Position numbers and translations under genes: made by a program. The notes below the pieces were generated by a model, which was given only the letters and a program-made list of their open reading frames with translations, did not search any database and had not been told where the DNA came from. Shown here in pieces: positions 388 through 21,162 of a DNA stretch of 23,413 nt. The first letter of the stretch is position 1; the number at the start of each line of letters is the position of its first letter. The DNA is taken from the IMG/VR virus record IMGVR_UViG_3300046465_000082, positions 1 to 23,413 of that record. The stretch is one strand, 5' to 3'. The DNA comes from a virus.

Positions 388-1113
388 GTGAATCTACAAC
401 ACAAAGTGGTAAGCCCTAAAATGACGACTTTCGCTCAACGTCTGCAAATGGCGTGTTCCGAACATCCTGACATCCCTGATTACGGCAAAGGGTTACAGAC
501 TGAGATAGCCAAGCAAATGAAGGTCAGCCAAGAGGCTGTACGCAAATGGCTTTCGGGAGAATCTACACCAAGGCAACCCGCAATGATCCGCTTGGCAAAA
601 ATGCTTGGCGTTGAGTATGTGTGGCTTGCGCTTGGAACTTCTGAAACAGAGTTCGCTCATCTAAAACAAATATCAGCCCGACACGATGGTGCTGTACACG
701 CGCTGATATCATTTTTAATTTTACGAGGCTACAACGTAGCTTTTTCAAACGATGATACAGACCGCGCTGACGTCCACGCCATCGGTCACGGTGTGCAGAG
801 AAATCTCGCACTGTGTTTGACTGAGTATATTGGTGATTGGACATGCAATGTGGTCACGCCAATGCCCGATGACAGCATAAGCCTCATAGCCGCGATTCCG
901 CTACATGAAACTCATGATGAACTAGAGGAAAACTATCCAGATTTAGTTTGTTCTTTGGTCTACGACTTCCTCTGGATCAATTCCGACATGCTGAAAAAAC
1001 ACGGTCAGCGTAGCGGAGCGAATTGGACGTTACCAATAACCTACGATTTGGAGAAACATTATTGGGTGGTCAACGGAAAAGAGATTCCCTTATTTTTGGA
1101 GAGGTACGAATGA
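388..1113 (+). CDS. XRE-type helix-turn-helix transcriptional regulator with unknown C-terminal domain
   Basis: A 241-residue protein. Residues ~13-85 form an XRE/Cro-CI-like DNA-binding domain: LQTEIAKQMKVSQEAVRKWL is the helix-turn-helix, followed by SGESTPR and a typical LAKMLGV helix. The remaining ~150 residues contain no recognisable LexA/S24 peptidase signature, so it is not an ordinary RecA-cleavable CI repressor; I do not recognise this domain. I chose the GTG at 388 because CAGGG lies 6 nt upstream. An ATG at 421 (MTTFAQRL) is a credible alternative that loses 11 residues and starts like many XRE proteins, but has no clear ribosome site. The stop overlaps the next start (ATGA), implying coupling to the small DNA-binding protein. 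Likely controls phage gene expression or lysogeny; inference only. Confidence 0.8.
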   Translation: MNLQHKVVSPKMTTFAQRLQMACSEHPDIPDYGKGLQTEIAKQMKVSQEAVRKWLSGESTPRQPAMIRLAKMLGVEYVWLALGTSETEFAHLKQISARHDGAVHALISFLILRGYNVAFSNDDTDRADVHAIGHGVQRNLALCLTEYIGDWTCNVVTPMPDDSISLIAAIPLHETHDELEENYPDLVCSLVYDFLWINSDMLKKHGQRSGANWTLPITYDLEKHYWVVNGKEIPLFLERYE

Positions 1114-1319
1114 TCGAAAAACCATATTACACAATGCCAGAACTAGCAGAGTTGATGAGTATGTCCCTCAAAGGCTTACACAACGCTCTGCATCACGAAT
1201 CATTCCCAATACCAACCTACAAGCTAGGTAAGTTTAGAGTGGCTGATAAAGAAGTTGTCAGCTATTACTTTGAACAGAAACGGGCTGAAGGAATGTCAGA
1301 ATTTACAACCAGAAAGTGA
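1110..1319 (+). CDS. Small AlpA/excisionase-like DNA-binding protein
   Basis: A 69-residue protein starting MIEKPYYTMPELAEL. The start is set by ATGA overlap with the upstream regulator and by a strong GGAGAGG ribosome site (1098-1104) 5 nt before the ATG. The pattern YTMPELAELMSMSLKGLHNALH...FPIPTYKLGKFRVADKEVVSYYFEQK is that of MerR-like winged-helix proteins of the AlpA/Xis group: a helix-turn-helix, a wing with K-x-G-[KR]-x-R-V, and a final helix. Such proteins direct excision by bending attachment-site DNA or regulate int transcription. With an integrase 0.3 kb away, a role as excisionase or directionality factor is plausible but not proven. It could equally be a simple transcription regulator. 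Confidence 0.7.
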   Translation: MIEKPYYTMPELAELMSMSLKGLHNALHHESFPIPTYKLGKFRVADKEVVSYYFEQKRAEGMSEFTTRK

Positions 1320-1328
1320 GGATACAAC

Positions 1329-1634
1329 ATGAGTAACGAAGCTGAATGGATAAAACTAAGGGAAGATTTCCCTGCAATAGAACCAAGTGGGAAGGATGAT
1401 GTGAACCACCCCGCTCACTACAATCACGGTGAGATCGAATGCATCACATACCTTCGAGACAATCTAGGGGACGGGTTTGAATATTACCTCGAAGGTAACA
1501 TCAAGAAGTACCTCCACAGGTGGAGATACAAAAGCGACAGCAGAGCAAAGCAGATTGAGGATTTGCGTAAGGCCGCTTGGTATCTAGGTGAGTTGCTTAA
1601 CTCTCAGGTTTTCGACAAAGAATCCAAAACCTGA
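1329..1634 (+). CDS. DUF3310 family phage protein
   Basis: A 101-residue protein whose residues ~24-95 carry the DUF3310 hallmarks: VNHPAHY near the start of the domain, GEIECITYL, then EGNIKKYLHRW and EDLRKAAWYLGEL. The family is very common in phage early regions (sometimes annotated as nucleotide-kinase-like) but its biochemical function is not established. The ribosome site GAGG (1318-1321) overlaps the stop of the preceding gene and sits 7 nt before the ATG, so it is the last member of the early operon. Its final ~10 codons overlap the 3' end of the convergent integrase by 31 bp, and its stop lies in an inverted repeat. Family call is secure. Confidence 0.9.
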   Translation: MSNEAEWIKLREDFPAIEPSGKDDVNHPAHYNHGEIECITYLRDNLGDGFEYYLEGNIKKYLHRWRYKSDSRAKQIEDLRKAAWYLGELLNSQVFDKESKT

Positions 1635-2590
1635 ACAGCACTCCTGTGCGTGTAGCGTTTGAGCATGTTCATGTCTTGATGACCGCTGAACAGGCTCACC
1701 GCTGACATATCTAACCCGCGCTCAAACAGGCGGGTACACCCCTCATGGCGCAAGTCGTGCCATCTGACATCTTCTATACCCGCCTTTAGTCTTGCTTTCC
1801 AAAAAGCGTGGCTGACTGATTTTCCGTTTTGAGGGAATATTTTTTCTGAAATTCTAGGTTGTTTACTAATTATTTCTTGAGCTTCTGGTAAGAGCGGCAC
1901 ACGCTCATCTCGTTTTTTCTTCGGGTGTTTGCGTTGCCTAATCAAAATAGATCGGCCTTCGTCACCTAAGTCGCTCCAAAGCAAACTGAACTGCTCACCC
2001 TGACGCATAGCCGTATTCACCGCAAAGCTCATAAGGTCAGCCATTGGGAAATAATCATTGCAAGTTTCCGCAATGATTCGCATTTCTTCGTCAGATACTC
2101 TGCGATCCCTGTGATTAGATTCTGCTATGACTCCAAGCTTCTTGAGGATCTTCATCGCCTTCTTGTAATCATCCATACGAGGCTGTGCCTCCCACATAGA
2201 TTCGGCTGTATCAAACACGACACCTATGTATATGAAGTCCTGCATGACTGTAGAAGGGGCTACACCGCGCTCTATGGCGTAGTTTGTCAACGTAGGGCTG
2301 TCTAATTCATCCAGATTAAAATGCCCCAGAGAACGCCTCAGAGCCTCTAAGGTGTTACCTTTCGTCCTGCCTATCGGTTTGATGCGTCCAATCTCGTTGA
2401 TATAGCGTCTTATCAGCCCACCAAAATTGCTATCATCTTGCGTGTATCTACCAGATTGAATGTCTGATTCCGTGTCAGTCATCCAGTTTTTAGCATCGGC
2501 TTTTTTGATAAAGGTTTTTGATATGGGCTTCATACCCTTCTTGCGGATAAGGACTCTGTATTTGCCGTTACGAGCTTCAATCATTCCCAT
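1604..2590 (-). CDS. int: Tyrosine recombinase / phage integrase
   Basis: A ~328-residue site-specific recombinase that joins phage attP to a bacterial attB. Numbering from the upstream GTG at 2596: residues 5-50 are an arm-binding-like N-terminus (ARNGKYRVLIRKKG), ~55-150 the core-binding SAM-like domain, and 165-330 the catalytic domain. The catalytic set is complete: R198 in NTAMRQGEQ, a basic strand with candidate Lys at 223-228, H280-x-x-R283 in WHDLRH, H306 in SGHQD, and nucleophile Y315 in LKRYTH. Start is uncertain: GTG 2596, ATG 2590 (preferred) or ATG 2584, none with a clear ribosome site. It is transcribed opposite to the early operon and convergent with it. A promoter is visible at 2625-2652. 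Length and residues indicate an active enzyme. Confidence 0.93.
   Translation of the reverse strand: MGMIEARNGKYRVLIRKKGMKPISKTFIKKADAKNWMTDTESDIQSGRYTQDDSNFGGLIRRYINEIGRIKPIGRTKGNTLEALRRSLGHFNLDELDSPTLTNYAIERGVAPSTVMQDFIYIGVVFDTAESMWEAQPRMDDYKKAMKILKKLGVIAESNHRDRRVSDEEMRIIAETCNDYFPMADLMSFAVNTAMRQGEQFSLLWSDLGDEGRSILIRQRKHPKKKRDERVPLLPEAQEIISKQPRISEKIFPQNGKSVSHAFWKARLKAGIEDVRWHDLRHEGCTRLFERGLDMSAVSLFSGHQDMNMLKRYTHRSAVQVLDSLSKT
1605..1633. repeat. 8-bp inverted repeat spanning both stop codons of convergent genes
   Basis: CAGGTTTT (1605-1612) and AAAACCTG (1626-1633) are perfectly complementary around a 13-nt loop. The integrase stop (TCA on the plus strand, 1604-1606) lies in the left arm and the DUF3310 stop (TGA, 1632-1634) in the right arm. 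A transcript from either strand could fold this stem and slow converging polymerases, but neither side has a U-tract, so a classical bidirectional terminator is not demonstrated. The arrangement of two short arms about a spacer at the 3' end of int also resembles a recombinase core site. Confidence 0.5.
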
Positions 2591-2593
2591 TTT

Positions 2594-2797
2594 CACTGCA
2601 CCATTTGGTTCATCAACAAAAGGCAGTGTAATGAAGAATGTAGGTATATCAAGGGTTTTGGTGCAGTTTGGTTCAGCACATCATGGAGATAAGTGATTGA
2701 AAAGTAACAAATTAATCTCTGTCGCTCCCATGATGGCTTGTAGCACTTATCTTATAAATCAATGAGTTAGGAGCGATGGTGCGCTGTGGGTGCAGTG
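2594..2797. repeat. Cluster of short direct and inverted repeats upstream of int (candidate attP arms/operators)
   Basis: Repeated words in the 224-bp non-coding gap 2597-2820 and the first bases of int: GGTGCAGT occurs at 2660-2667 and 2789-2796 (plus) and at 2595-2602 (minus), extended to GGTGCAGTG at 2789-2797 and 2594-2602. TTTGGTTCA is directly repeated at 2604-2612 and 2667-2675. AGATAAGTG (2687-2695) pairs with CACTTATCT (2744-2752). CATCATGG (2679-2686) pairs with CCATGATG (2728-2735). TCGCTCC (2722-2728) pairs with GGAGCGA (2770-2776). This density in a short non-coding region next to int fits integrase/Xis arm sites or regulator operators; which is inference. Confidence 0.5.
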
Positions 2798-2820: not shown

Positions 2821-2988
2821 ATGGACAAAAGTGAACTATCAGAGAATGCGTTAGAGTGGCTTCAAGTTGTCGAGGACAGCCCCGAAGATTGGGAACCTGA
2901 CATGCTTGATCATTGCCTTGAGAGAGATGGTGTCTGCAAAGAAGACAAAGACTTTATATTAAGGAGCCACAAAGCCCTTCTTCACTAG
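2821..2988 (+). CDS. Small acidic hypothetical protein (55 aa)
   Basis: ATG at 2821 to TAG at 2986-2988 encodes 55 residues beginning MDKSELSENALEWL and rich in Asp and Glu. I do not recognise it. Amino-acid composition and helical pattern (ENALEWLQVVEDS, DMLDHCLERDG) look like a genuine small phage protein rather than a random frame. No Shine-Dalgarno is visible; instead TATGAT (2804-2809) and TATACT (2809-2814) lie directly upstream, so a nearly leaderless transcript is possible, though no good -35 is seen. It is divergent from int and its last 30 bp overlap the 3' end of the opposite-strand late operon. It might be a regulator linked to int control; function unknown. Confidence 0.5.
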   Translation: MDKSELSENALEWLQVVEDSPEDWEPDMLDHCLERDGVCKEDKDFILRSHKALLH

Positions 2989-4824
2989 CTCCTCGACAGT
3001 ACGCTCATCAAGAACTCCAATCAATCCCGTTTGCATGGTCTTGCCAACTGGGGCAGGAACCTTCGCGGCATTAACGTCATGACCTCTGCGGGTCATCTCA
3101 TCTACAAAATTTAAACCCTTCGTTCGGATAACAGGGTTCATGTCTGTTAGTACATTTACGCCCTGCCCAAATCGTCCCATGTGACTGCCCATGATGTCGG
3201 TGTTGTAGGTAGAGTGAAGCCCTGAAATCGGATCTCTATTCATGTCGAACACACCAACATTCTGCAAGTTTCCAACTCTTGGATTTATTTGATTCGGATC
3301 TACTACCATTGCTCTTGCTTGCGATAAGTTAAGAGAACCCTCACCTCTAAACTCGTCCAAAGCTTTCGCTACTGCTTTTCTGCCTGAACCCGCCTGACGC
3401 AACCATTTCTCTGCGTCAGGGCTATCTATTCCAACCCAATCAGGTTGAGGAGCCATGCTGTCTTTCATGTTTCCCGCACCTTCTCTGATTCTTTTATCTA
3501 CAAGCTTCTTGGCTTTTTTGCTCATATTGCGTTTGGCGTAAGGAACCATCAAGTCAGTAGTCATGGTTGCAAAGTCGGTTGAAGTCCCGCCCATTTGATA
3601 TGGCATAAATAAGGGTGCACCTTTTGCTCCCTCTAACTTCATTGCACCTTCCGCGTTATTCATCATGGTAGTTATCGCGCCTTTGTCTGAAGCCCAAAGG
3701 ACTCCGCGATCTACGTTTCTACCTTGACGCATGTAATCCTGACCGCCTTCCATCAACACTTTGTACTCGTCACCGTTGATAGACTCCAGAGTTTCTAACG
3801 CGCCTCTGGACGTGTCGGCCATACCTGTAACAAATGGCCTGTTAACAATTTGATCCGCAGTGACCATAGGGTTATCGACAAGATCGTCACCACCTGAATA
3901 CTCTACTTCCAAGTTGTTAACTGAATCGGGATCTCCAACCCGCTGTAAAAGATCAGTGTCTCTGTTTACTTCAGGAACACCATCTACAGCGTTCATTACA
4001 CCTTTATACCCTGCTCTGCCGAAAGGTATTGCTGAGGCCAAAGTGCCTAACGCACCAAGACCCATCCCCAAGTAATCGTCATTCTTGTATGCGTCATATG
4101 TTTCGGAGATACCCTTTGCCGCGCCAAGGAACGGAACAAAATCCATAGCCATAGAAAGGTATTCCGCATTTCTGCGATCTTTTTCTGTGCCGCCCATTTG
4201 ATCTGCAAGGGCATCTATCATTTGATTCGTCAGGCCGTTGTGCTCACCAGTTGGTGCTACAGCGGAAGGTGCTGACAGAGCAGAGTTAACAGTGGCTTCC
4301 TTTAAGCCGCCACCACCCTCAAAGCTCATAATGTTTGGGTCGTTCTTTTTGGAAGGATCAAAGTCTGCGTGAACTGAGCGAAGATCCTTTGAATCAAAAA
4401 TATTAATTTCAGGTTGCGCCCCGCCAACCTCAACGCCTGTGAAACCCTGATCCTGAAGTATGCGGTTGGTTTCAGCTTTCCACTCCTGAGAACTAAAACC
4501 CGCGCCTCTACCACCTAAATTAGCAATAGCTTGCTCACTGGCCGCATCTTTGTCTGCGGCCTTTGCTATTGGCTGTCTGGCGTATAAAGGAAGGACGTTA
4601 GCTTTCCCAGATTTTAAATTTACATATCGCTCACCCTGATTGGGAACAGGTGCGGTATAGATACCCGCGCCTAGCTTGCCGCGGCTAGAAGGCTTAAAAG
4701 ATTGAATGTCATCTGCTTCAGTCCAGTGATAAAGGACACGATCAGTATCTAAGGTTGGATCATCAACCGCACGTTGTAATCTTGCAGACCGCGTACCATT
4801 AGCGACAACGTCAAAAAGGCTCAT
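2959..4824 (-). CDS. Large late protein with N-terminal ADP-ribosyltransferase-like (polyvalent-type) domain
   Basis: A 621-residue protein, last gene of the late operon. Residues ~28-168 look like the ART domain found in phage polyvalent proteins: LYHWTEADDIQSFKPS (Y32-H33), a GAGIYTAP strand (53-59), VLPLYARQP, GFTGVEV, INIFDSKDLRS and the closing DFDPSKKNDPNIM. ARTs transfer ADP-ribose from NAD+ to a target; the usual third catalytic residue cannot be assigned with confidence. Residues ~225-275 (VPFLGAAKGISETYDAYKN...GMGLGALGTLASAIPFG) are hydrophobic, Gly/Ala-rich and resemble pre-toxin or membrane-crossing segments. The C-terminal ~300 residues are unassigned. Position after the tail nozzle and beside other long proteins suggests it is packaged and ejected with the DNA. 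ATG is 4 nt after the preceding stop. Confidence 0.7.
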   Translation of the reverse strand: MSLFDVVANGTRSARLQRAVDDPTLDTDRVLYHWTEADDIQSFKPSSRGKLGAGIYTAPVPNQGERYVNLKSGKANVLPLYARQPIAKAADKDAASEQAIANLGGRGAGFSSQEWKAETNRILQDQGFTGVEVGGAQPEINIFDSKDLRSVHADFDPSKKNDPNIMSFEGGGGLKEATVNSALSAPSAVAPTGEHNGLTNQMIDALADQMGGTEKDRRNAEYLSMAMDFVPFLGAAKGISETYDAYKNDDYLGMGLGALGTLASAIPFGRAGYKGVMNAVDGVPEVNRDTDLLQRVGDPDSVNNLEVEYSGGDDLVDNPMVTADQIVNRPFVTGMADTSRGALETLESINGDEYKVLMEGGQDYMRQGRNVDRGVLWASDKGAITTMMNNAEGAMKLEGAKGAPLFMPYQMGGTSTDFATMTTDLMVPYAKRNMSKKAKKLVDKRIREGAGNMKDSMAPQPDWVGIDSPDAEKWLRQAGSGRKAVAKALDEFRGEGSLNLSQARAMVVDPNQINPRVGNLQNVGVFDMNRDPISGLHSTYNTDIMGSHMGRFGQGVNVLTDMNPVIRTKGLNFVDEMTRRGHDVNAAKVPAPVGKTMQTGLIGVLDERTVEELVKKGFVAP

Positions 4825-16625: not shown

Positions 16626-16873
16626 TAAACTGGAGCACCGTTAGCTATCGCTTGGAACTTTACATTCGTTGCATCGGCATCGTAGTTACCTTCTTCATCA
16701 AACAAAACGTCGAGGTGCATGTTCCATGATCTACCAGATGCACCATCAGTAAATCGTGCTAACACGTTGGTAGTGTTCTCGGTGTAAACAACCATCTCAT
16801 GGGTTTCTCCGTCTGGCGCGGAATACTCCCGTGTACCTGTAAACTCCTCTAACAGTTCAAATGTAACGGCCAT
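16625..16873 (-). CDS. Small hypothetical protein next to tail fibre (82 aa)
   Basis: An 82-residue, acidic, beta-type protein beginning [19 protein letters not shown]. It has VVYTENTTNVLARF and MHLDVLFDEEGNYDADAT strands separated by Gly/Asp turns; no known domain is recognised. The ATG overlaps the stop of the large fibre gene by one base (TAATG), the position normally taken by fibre chaperones or a fibre-attached small protein. A chaperone role is only a suggestion because the fibre has its own intramolecular chaperone. Confidence 0.7.
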   Translation of the reverse strand: MAVTFELLEEFTGTREYSAPDGETHEMVVYTENTTNVLARFTDGASGRSWNMHLDVLFDEEGNYDADATNVKFQAIANGAPV

Positions 16874-19305
16874 TACTTCGCCTCCAATTGCGCTTTAAGG
16901 TCATCGACCTCTGCTTTGAGTTCTTTGATTGATTCGATCAGTAGACCGACCATGTTCCCGTAGGCCACTGAGTAGTGACCTTCTTCATCTCCAAGAACGG
17001 CTTCGGGTAATACTTCTAATACTTCTTGAGCGATAACACCTGTCTGTCGTACTGGAGTTTCAGGCTCACCATGCTCGTCAAAAGTCACATCTGTCCTGTC
17101 AAACGTGTATCCGTTTAACTGACAAACCTTATCTAGCGCATTAGGTATATGCTCGATGTTGGTTTTGACTCTGATATCTGAATAGGCTGTGACGTTGCCA
17201 GAAGTCCAGATGTTTGTTCCCAGAGAACATTTAGCACTTCCGTTTTGACACCAAACCATCTGGTGACTGCCGCCCATCGTGCCGCCAGTTGAGTTGTTGG
17301 TGTGCTTGTAGGCTAGTCCGTAGAGGTTGCCGAAGTTAGTACCAGAAGAATGGTTGCGGTAGGCCGTGCCCATCGACCATATTTGGTCTGTTTTAGTGGA
17401 ACTATAAACACCAAAACAGCTTCTGTTTCTCGCATTAACAACAATGTCGCGTGTTGTAGTGAGGTCACCACCTGAACTAATGGTGAACCCGTTGTGCGTT
17501 ACCGTGTTGCCACGAAAACGAACGGTGTCCCCAGAGGTGTTACCTAAGTAGATGTTGGTGGCGTAGTTGTAGTAGTTACCTACGCTAGTCTGAATATAAA
17601 AATCACCGCTTGAGTAGGCTGTGCGAGTACTGGTGTCGTTATAGAAGTAACCAGACGAACCATCGTTGTTTGAATAGATTCTGTCACCACGCAGATAGTT
17701 TGCATTCACATTCCCCGCTACCGTTAAGTGATCACCCGTTCCGTTAAACTTGATACCCGCATTCGAGTAATAGTTGGTCGCACCGACTGAAACAACCATA
17801 GGGTATTCGCCAGAAAAATCTGTGCCTCCCTGTATTATCGCCCCTGTTGGGTTTGTACCGGCAGGGCCAGTTGCACCTGTAGCTCCTGTCGCTCCCGTAG
17901 CACCTGTCGGCCCTTGAGGGCCAGTTGCTCCTTGTGGGCCTTGTGGCCCTTGTGGGCCTGTTGCACCAGTGGCTCCGTCATTACCATCAGCACCTGCGGG
18001 GCCAGTAGCTCCCGTTGGGCCTTGCGGACCTGTTGCTCCATCAGCACCTGTTGCTCCGTCAGCACCCGCAGGGCCAGTTGCACCTTGCGGCCCCTGTGGG
18101 CCAGTTGCACCTTGTGGGCCAGTAGCACCGTCAGCACCAGTAGCTCCATCTGCACCCGCAGGGCCAGTAGCACCATCAGAACCATCAGAACCATCAGCAC
18201 CATCAGCACCATCAGCACCTGCCGCTCCAGTTGCGCCTTGTGGCCCTGTTGCACCTTGTGGCCCTGTAGCTCCTGTTGGCCCTGTCAAAGCGGCTAACTG
18301 GGTGGACGTGAAATCGGAGTATTCAAACGCATCTCCTGTCGGCCCTTGAGGGCCAGTTGCGCCTTGTGGCCCCGTGGCTCCAGTAGCTCCGGTTGCTCCT
18401 GTATCACCACGAGGCACGGTAAGAACACCCGTACTACTGTTGTAGGACGCAGAAGATCCTGCCGCACCAGTGGCCGCAGTCAGTGAAGTGATGTTGCTTA
18501 ATGTAGTTGCCGCACTAGACGCTGACGTTGCCGCCTCTGATGCTTTAGTCGTAGCAGTAGACGCAGAGGTAGCGGCAGACGTTGCGCTTGATGCCGCATT
18601 AGTTTCTGACGTTGCCGCATCTGACGCTTTAGTTGTAGCAGTGGCCGCAGAGTTTGATGCAGATGTTGCACTGGATGCCGCATTGCTTTCTGAAGTCGAG
18701 GCATTAGACGCAGAGGTAGATGCCTCTGACGCTTTAGTTGTTGCAGTGGTTGCCGCTCCAGATGCAGACGTTGCAGATGATGCAGAATTTGTTTCTGATG
18801 TTGCCGCATTACTCGCAGAGGTAGATGCCTCTGACGCTTTAGTGGTTGCAGTCGATGCAGAGGTAGCCGCAGACGTTGCACTAGATGCCGCATTCGTTTC
18901 GGCAGTCTCAGCGTTAGTTTCGGCAGTCTCAGCATTTGTTTTCGCTGTCTCAGCCGCATTCTTCGATGCAAGTGCAGATGCCGCTGAAGCTGTTGCCGCT
19001 GACGCATCACCTGCAATAGATGATGCTACGTTAGATGCATTTGTAGCTGACGTTGCGGCATTTGTTTCAGATGTAGCCGCATTAGCCGCAGAAGTAGCCG
19101 CATTAGCTTCAGATACAGAGGCCGCGTTTTTAGATGCTAGGGCATCGGCTGTGTAGGCATCGGTTGTGGTTTGCTCTGGCGACCCTTGATAAAAGCCACT
19201 TGCTGTGTCCGTTTGCTCGACTGCATCTTCTGCAATCGTTGATTCTGTCGCGTCCGTAGACCCAACGACTGTGTCTGCCGGATTGTCGCCAAAAAAACCA
19301 CCCAT
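16873..19305 (-). CDS. Collagen-like tail fibre with C-terminal S74 self-cleaving chaperone
   Basis: An 810-residue fibre. Residues 1-55 are an attachment-type N-terminus; ~59-272 an Ala/Ser/Thr/Asn stalk of degenerate coiled-coil repeats ([20 protein letters not shown]); ~299-486 collagen Gly-X-Y repeats ([16 protein letters not shown]), broken once by a [16 protein letters not shown] insert; ~490-705 the globular receptor-type domain (YYSNAGIKF...NGFTISSGG); 709-810 the peptidase S74 chaperone. S709 and K714 in SDIRVK form the catalytic pair, so the last ~102 residues, which end in a coiled coil ([17 protein letters not shown]), are expected to be cut off after trimer folding. It lies downstream of the head-tail adaptor, one base from its stop. 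Confidence 0.92.
17850..18412. repeat. Collagen Gly-X-Y coding repeat array
   Basis: A ~560-bp array of 9-bp multiples coding for Gly-X-Y triplets, with longer near-identical blocks (GGGCCAGTTGCACCTTGTGG-like on the plus strand) recurring. One non-repeat interruption of ~55 bp falls at about 18290-18345. The array is GC-rich relative to its surroundings and prone to in-frame length change. Confidence 0.85.
18490..19130. repeat. Ala/Ser/Thr stalk coding repeats
   Basis: Imperfect repeats on the order of 40-100 bp coding for the alanine-rich coiled stalk. The block GCAGAGGTAGATGCCTCTG followed by ACGCTTTAGT recurs nearly identically near 18713 and 18818 with looser copies near 18540 and 18620. 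The array creates long spurious open frames on both strands. Confidence 0.8.
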
Positions 19306-20262: not shown

Positions 20263-21162
20263 TTAAGCAGTAAGTGCTTCGATAAGACCGGAAGCCTTGT
20301 CGTTTTCACAAACCAAAGTTAGCTCAGTGAGCATCTGACGCTTGTCAGAGTCACCTTGCTTGGCGAGGACGATAGTCTGCATTGGACGCAGAACTGCGCG
20401 TGACCAATACTCTGTGTCCAAAACTAGAGCCGTGTTATTTTGGAGAAATCTATTAGGAACCACCGAGCACTCTCCGAACGGACTCACGTATAGATCCACG
20501 CTGTTCACAATTTTTGTGCCAGTGCTGAAGTCACGCTCACGACCCGCTGATGCCGCAAAATTGGCAACAGTTACAGAGTGAGATGGAGTAACTTGGATCT
20601 GGTTGGGATCGCCACCCGCTTCATAAACGCTCTGCAAAGTTCCAAGCAGAAGAGTTTCAGTGAAGGCACGATTTGAACCTGCGGTGCTAGTTGTAGAAGC
20701 ATCGATCTGGTTCTGGGCAGAAGTTAGCTGACGAGCAGTTGTTGCGTTACCCGCAGTCCCTGCTTGCAGAGCACCCACAAATGCGTGTTCTATGTCACGA
20801 CGCATTTCTTTTCCTTTCATCGCGATGTTCATCTGCAAATCGGAATTTCTACCGTAGGTGGCAACCGCTTCAGAAGTACCTGAAGACTGCACAACCTTGG
20901 TGAAAATCTGCGTGTTAGCATTTTTCATGGTTGTGACGTTGTTGCTTGCCGCACCCGCGTCTGCTCCTTCTACTGCCGCATTGGTTCCGACACTTGAAAG
21001 CTCTGATTGTTGCCACTGGTGTAAAGTGGCTGACGCTGAGCTAGTGCCGATTGAAGAGGTAAAAGGAGTCAAAGTGGGACTAATGTCATAAATTATGTCC
21101 TCGATACTCTCTTTTTTACCGACTTGATCATAAGTTTTTAAGGTATTTGCTACTGATGGCAT
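20263..21162 (-). CDS. Major capsid protein, DUF5309/SU10 type
   Basis: A 299-residue HK97-fold capsid protein of the DUF5309 (SU10-type) family. It opens MPSVANTLKTYDQVGKKESIEDIIYDISPTLTPF in the family style, then GTSSASATLHQWQQ, the conserved TKVVQSSGTSEAV and MRRDIEHAF segments, and closes with VDLYVSPFGECSVVPNRF and LALTELTLV-type strands (LTELTLVCENDKA). It builds the icosahedral shell. AGGA is ~9 nt before the ATG. It is preceded by the scaffold gene (16-bp gap) and followed by the terminator, a combination expected for the most abundant virion protein. Confidence 0.9.
   Translation of the reverse strand: MPSVANTLKTYDQVGKKESIEDIIYDISPTLTPFTSSIGTSSASATLHQWQQSELSSVGTNAAVEGADAGAASNNVTTMKNANTQIFTKVVQSSGTSEAVATYGRNSDLQMNIAMKGKEMRRDIEHAFVGALQAGTAGNATTARQLTSAQNQIDASTTSTAGSNRAFTETLLLGTLQSVYEAGGDPNQIQVTPSHSVTVANFAASAGRERDFSTGTKIVNSVDLYVSPFGECSVVPNRFLQNNTALVLDTEYWSRAVLRPMQTIVLAKQGDSDKRQMLTELTLVCENDKASGLIEALTA

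Follow-up and report, generated by a model that had tools for sequence, protein, structure and literature searches.

An attachment site that very probably targets dusA, with arm-type and IHF-like sites, beside the integrase gene of an environmental podovirus-like phage

Overview

Our analysis indicates that positions 2594-2797 of the window (the whole 23,413-nt stretch of virus record IMGVR_UViG_3300046465_000082 analysed here) very probably constitute the attP of a dusA-specific tyrosine integrase, together with arm-type sites, IHF-type sites and a replacement dusA start. Targeting of dusA by an element that supplies a new dusA start is a known strategy, and published dusA elements show the same behaviour (PMC4482086; PMC8409611). 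Here it appears in an environmental genome resembling those of short-tailed phages, with the layout of binding sites resolved. The initial annotation had read this region as arm-type sites or as operators for an XRE or AlpA-like protein. The former reading is supported and the latter is not, and the attP core and the dusA mimicry were absent from that annotation.

The integrase and its family

The int gene (1604-2590, minus strand), which has 2594-2797 immediately upstream, encodes a tyrosine integrase of the DAI type (PF00589, E 1.3e-22). Its start is likely the ATG at 2590 rather than the GTG at 2596, judging from relatives whose proteins begin MGVIQKR. The RHRH/Y residues of a tyrosine recombinase are present, with R198, H280, R283, H306 and Y315 invariant in an alignment of 8 relatives, and the closest relatives (L001 and L002) encode an Int that is 75% identical. 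Phages mEp460, BcepMigl, BcepIL02 and H66 have been named among dusA-associated phages (Farrugia 2015, PMC4482086). Int matches theirs at E values of 4e-46 (mEp460), 8e-49 (BcepIL02), 1e-48 (BcepMigl) and 1e-45 (H66), beyond the family threshold of 1e-20, the comparison being made via phages in the founding paper and not with that paper's query protein. The window holds several of the traits by which DAI elements are recognized: the tyrosine recombinase residues, the DAI similarity, a dusA-matching core adjoining int and an open replacement dusA 5′ end. A prtN/rdfN homologue occurs in 64% of DAI islands and is not strictly defining. No prtN-type gene was seen in the window, which is an incomplete fragment and encodes instead an AlpA-like protein with only a weak HTH_17 match. 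A nucleotide search against known phages gave only a short integrase match and was set aside.

The DAI elements share with the window a tyrosine integrase, a core in the dusA 5′ end, an int gene adjoining dusA and the provision of a new dusA 5′ end by the element (PMC4482086). The window differs from them in coming from an environmental phage whose structural genes resemble those of podoviruses, in its TTG start codon and in the prtN-type gene not being seen. Environmental podovirus-like phages are now placed among the dusA-hijacking elements.

A dusA-like frame at the attP core

The putative attP core, the dusA-like GTCGCTCCCATGATGG, lies at 2721-2736 on the plus strand, and the similarity may extend to 2740. 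It falls within a plus-strand frame at 2697-2735, TTG KSNKLISVAPMM, which translates as a DusA N-terminus and is common to relatives. The TTG and 12 further codons are open, and a GGAG at 2685-2688 (plus strand), 8 nt before the TTG, would serve as Shine-Dalgarno sequence for dusA after integration. Over the core the frame reads VAPMM, which matches the conserved 5′ part of dusA, and it adjoins int. A DusA-like frame is also found in the free-phage attPs of nine relatives (L001, L003, L004, L093, L094, L097, L098, L100 and L101). It reads (M)INNKLLSVAPMM in L001 and L002, which keep the same arrangement, (M)KINRKFCVAPML or nearly so in L003, L004, L093, L094, L097 and L098, and (M)KTK(K/R)IISVAPMM in L100 and L101. 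At the Shine-Dalgarno place, GGAG is present in L001, L003, L004, L100, L101 and L104, and is replaced by AAGG in L093, L094, L097 and L098.

When the frames of ten sequences were compared, pairwise differences numbered 77, 114 and 239 at codon positions 1, 2 and 3 (239 of 430 at the third; P 0.004), and one clade alone showed the third-position bias (P 0.003), although the attP and integrase sequences compared are related and these P values overstate their independence. Differences that fall mostly at third positions fit the dusA-like stretch being translated at times. Since in the free phage this stretch belongs to no longer gene, the prophage is presumably where it comes under selection. 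Promoter prediction found no plus-strand promoter for the rebuilt dusA.

Bacterial genomes were scanned by alignment to Int, which yielded loci at 30-40% identity. In about 40 of the scanned loci a full dusA lies directly against the int region, reading VAPMMDWTDRHCR... Second core copies were looked for in 15 genomes with int-dusA loci, and in several a second copy joins a DusA-like native 5′ end to element DNA, at distances of 61 kb in Brevundimonas albigilva, 110 kb in a second Brevundimonas and 25 kb in Phenylobacterium. Judged by their sequence, these far-side copies are the expected attL/attR pair, and in these relatives dusA adjacency and att pairs occur together. No integrated copy of the window phage, or of a relative with an Int more than 45% identical, was found in the bacterial genomes scanned, so attL/attR are seen only in the relatives at 30-40% identity.

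It might be argued that the resemblance of this stretch to dusA arose by chance or is a relic, and that the actual attP core is at another place near int, given that the window phage itself was not seen integrated and that some close relatives (L005 and L006) have other cores, with a tRNA in L006. However, the nine relatives' attPs show the same frame in the same place with third-position variation, and bacterial genomes carry members of the integrase family within dusA. We consider this alternative very improbable and take 2721-2736 as the core.

Based on the core frame, the host-side target to seek is a dusA reading VAPMM, perhaps VAPMMAW. Genes of the latter kind are rare, with 5 of 274 genomes in a gammaproteobacterial draw and 2 of 289 in an alphaproteobacterial draw, and one of the two alphaproteobacterial matches does not look like dusA. 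For the host of the window phage we lean towards Gammaproteobacteria. The minority of dusA genes reading VAPMMAWT in the gammaproteobacterial draw are L198, L199, L200, L201 and L202; that of L201, ATGATGGCTTGG with GCTTGG next, matches the window core up to 2740.

A tRNA as attachment target was rejected for the window, which contains no tRNA and whose core translates as DusA. In L006 (positions 2680-2800), whose integrase is 47% identical and whose arm word is AGTTGA, attP has the 3′ half of a tRNA gene beside it, with CAT in the anticodon loop, which indicates that close relatives use other targets.

Arm-type sites

The repeated words listed in the initial annotation were all present in 2594-2797 where it had put them. 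GGTGCAGTG lies at 2789-2797 (plus strand) and its complement CACTGCACC at 2594-2602, a third copy of GGTGCAGT is at 2660-2667, and TTTGGTTCA occurs at 2604-2612 and 2667-2675, 63 bp apart. These words are rare in the rest of the 23.4 kb, where GGTGCAGT has one copy and TTTGGTTCA and AGATAAGTG have none. Sequence comparison indicates a single degenerate arm-type word, TTGGTNCAGT, of which GGTGCAGT and TTTGGTTCA are two forms. Its copies stand in pairs to either side of the core, 10-12 bp apart within a pair: at 2777-2797 beyond the core, at 2659-2677 on its int side, and at 2594-2612 at the int start, the window having one copy of this last pair inverted.

Beyond the core, the predicted plus-strand sites are TGGTGCGCT at 2777-2785 (TGGTACACT in L001) and, 11 bp from it, GGGTGCAGTG at 2788-2797 (TGGTACAGT in L001). 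On the int side, also on the plus strand, TGGTGCAGT at 2659-2667 is conserved in L001 and is followed 10 bp on by TTTGGTTCAGC at 2667-2677 (TTTGGTACAGT in L001). At the int start, TGGTGCAGTG at 2594-2603 (minus strand) covers the int ribosome-binding region, and TTTGGTTCA at 2604-2612 (plus strand) aligns with TTGGTACA in L001; an arm word is also found at the int start in L001, L093, L094, L098, L099, L106 and L109. A weak, degenerate arm-like GGCAGTGT at 2622-2629 (plus strand) overlaps the int -10 and is aligned with GTGCAGTGT in L001.

With up to one mismatch, the motif TGGTNCAST shows no genome-wide enrichment (32 observed against 35 expected), but 5 copies fall within 2594-2797, whereas no other interval of 204 bp has more than 3; the Poisson P of 5e-6 is optimistic because the motif was picked after the relatives were seen.

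The arm-type reading gained from the relatives, in which words recur at matching positions and the word varies with the integrase N-terminus. L001 has TTGGTACAGT-like words at the corresponding arm places, and these are less degenerate than the words of the window. Spaced from int in a matching way are 5 copies of GGTACA in L001, and GGGGGA in L003, GGAGCA in L098, TGTGAC in L100 and GGCACA in L121. GGTACA is shared by L001, L093, L094, L099, L106 and L109, and the other words are TTGTAC (L095), GGAGCA (L096 and L098), TGTGAC (L100 and L104), GGCACA (L121 and L127) and GGGGGA (L003). The word differs among relatives while the layout is constant. Among 22 integrases, the first ~46 residues of Int are more alike in pairs that share a word, with the rest of the protein allowed for (0 of 5000 label permutations), which is support and not proof because the labels were assigned by the analyst and the sequences share ancestry. 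Owing to the degeneracy of its outer pair, the window itself yielded no pair in a tandem test with exact words. The arm word and the Int N-terminus change together, which provides a natural data set on arm-binding domain specificity.

Inverted pairs

Relative to dinucleotide shuffles, inverted 8-mer pairs are in excess (7 pairs, P 0.0006), and the excess in 2594-2797 is greater than in all 465 other 204-bp intervals tested; inverted 9-mer pairs alone give a weaker signal (P 0.03). The three nested pairs that had been singled out were not conserved as pairs, since one arm of each lies in a functional element and its partner changes freely. In CATCATGG/CCATGATG (2679-2686 and 2728-2735) the core is paired with the area of the Shine-Dalgarno sequence. 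Of the arms of AGATAAGTG/CACTTATCT (2687-2695 and 2744-2752), one overlaps the left IHF-like site and the other is an unconserved stretch, and GGAGCGA/TCGCTCC has one arm in the core and the other in an unconserved stretch. Neither L001 nor L003 keeps any of the three. They were dropped as functional inverted pairs for want of conservation, and we treat them as coincidental.

The crossing helices formed by CATCATGG, AGATAAGTG and GGAGCGA suggested a pseudoknot, and the folding z-scores were -1.9 and -2.4. Nevertheless, Rfam has no match for the region, and neither L001 nor L003 preserves the pairings. A folded RNA or ribozyme was rejected as an exceedingly remote explanation of the repeats.

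IHF-like sites

Two predicted sites flank the core. The left one, TTTCAATCACTTA at 2690-2702 (minus strand), has one mismatch to WATCARNNNNTTR, the published IHF consensus (PMC9820253), and overlaps the TTG start. The right one, AATCAATGAGTTA at 2757-2769 (plus strand), matches it exactly. Of 18 attP/attR sites, 17 had WATCARNNNNTTR with at most one mismatch 20-21 bp after the core, and about half of the 18 had it exactly; the number expected to have it anywhere in 60 bp is ~1.3. On the left, within a 62-base flank, the best IHF-like site mostly falls at a small set of positions spaced by ~10 bp (offsets 7-8, 17-19 and 28-31).

The AATCAATGAGTTA-type inverted sites could conceivably be extra integrase or RDF sites. 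They are near the core and conserved, and in L003, L093, L094, L097 and L098 the half-sites recur as a further, compact inverted pair, which is unusual for IHF. We nonetheless find this the less likely reading, as the 17 of 18 matches to the consensus extend even to distant relatives where the AlpA-like RDF type is not found, and we retain the IHF reading. The compact pairs (e.g. AAGTGATTAATCGTTATAAATCAATCACTTA in L098) lie between the left arm pairs of those five relatives and are absent from the window and L001.

The int promoter and candidate regulators

The predicted int promoter (2625-2652, minus strand) has a -35 TTGATA (2652-2647), a 16-bp spacer and a -10 TACACT (2630-2625). Its count was no better than in shuffles; L001 has near-identical hexamers (TTGATT and TACACT) with the same 16-bp spacer. 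Arm pairs lie just upstream of the -35 and between the -10 and the int ATG. The 63-bp spacing noted earlier is real, and we read it as a by-product of these two arm groups flanking the promoter. KplE1 intS/TorI offers a parallel, with an att region that overlaps the int promoter and arm sites near the -10/-35, although its integrase group and target are different; there, IntS and the RDF TorI repress int (PMC2951348), which serves as a model here. Since the groups at 2594-2612 and 2659-2677 bracket the predicted -10/-35 in the KplE1 manner, with arms overlapping the int promoter, Int probably represses itself.

A small AlpA-like HTH protein (1110-1319, plus strand; HTH_17 at E 0.22 only) is a candidate excisionase. 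Of the ~35 closest relatives, nearly all have a homologue next to int, and on this ground the protein is the best RDF candidate and the likely directionality factor for excision. Excision of IMEVchUSA3 and other dusA-specific mobilizable elements needs an RDF (PMC8409611). IMEVchUSA3 uses the PrtN homologue RdfN as its RDF, and attP lies between int and rdfN there (PMC8409611), whereas the window's candidate is AlpA-like and lies on the int side. An XRE-type regulator (388-1113, plus strand; HTH_3 E 4e-8, phrog_2967), which is not tied to the arm words, is the probable lysogeny repressor.

Both regulator genes are nearby and travel with int, and TorI also binds beside the int promoter (PMC2951348), which would be in keeping with GGTGCAGT/TTTGGTTCA acting as XRE or AlpA operators that control int, as first proposed. 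However, the words are absent near the XRE and AlpA genes, the outer copies at 2777-2797 lie beyond the core and away from the promoter, and among relatives the word tracks the integrase N-terminus. We regard operators as improbable and the words as arm-type sites, to which the AlpA-like protein may bind as RDF.

Proposed mechanism

We propose that Int would join the core at 2721-2736 to the matching stretch near the host dusA 5′ end. Its N-terminal domain would hold the TTGGTNCAGT arm sites that flank the core, with the DNA bent at 2690-2702 and 2757-2769 by IHF or another bending protein. In the integrated state, dusA would take its Shine-Dalgarno sequence, TTG start and first codons from the phage side and stay readable with a new N-terminus. 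Int bound at 2594-2612 and 2659-2677 would limit its own expression, and the AlpA-like protein would direct excision.

The founding DAI paper describes only the core, with arm sites and IHF not mentioned (PMC4482086), and the present arm and IHF map for the family is finer than its site description. A search of freely readable literature found no paper combining dusA, attP, arm and integration host factor. More tentatively, one ~200-bp stretch in these phages might combine recombination core, spare start for dusA as a tRNA-modification gene of the host, int promoter and Int/IHF docking, with arm words repeatedly swapped along with the Int arm-binding domain in a fixed layout. The left IHF-like site would also serve as the start region of the rebuilt dusA, and Int/IHF binding could tune DusA in lysogens.

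Other features of the window

Beyond attP, a 55-aa acidic ORF (2821-2988) has no homologue in any fetched locus, and a variable neighbour adjoins the int module on this side. The 621-aa ORF at 2959-4824 has an N-terminal part (LYHWTEADDIQSFKPSSRGKLGAGIYTA) that we presume, on impression only, to resemble ADP-ribosyltransferase-type polyvalent phage proteins. An 810-aa tail-fibre-like protein (16873-19305) contains collagen-like GATGPQG and alanine/serine/threonine-rich repeats. The major capsid protein (20263-21162) is closest, at 37-41%, to those of uncultured spring phages, a large group of Pseudomonas aeruginosa podoviruses and Pelagibacter phage HTVC106P.
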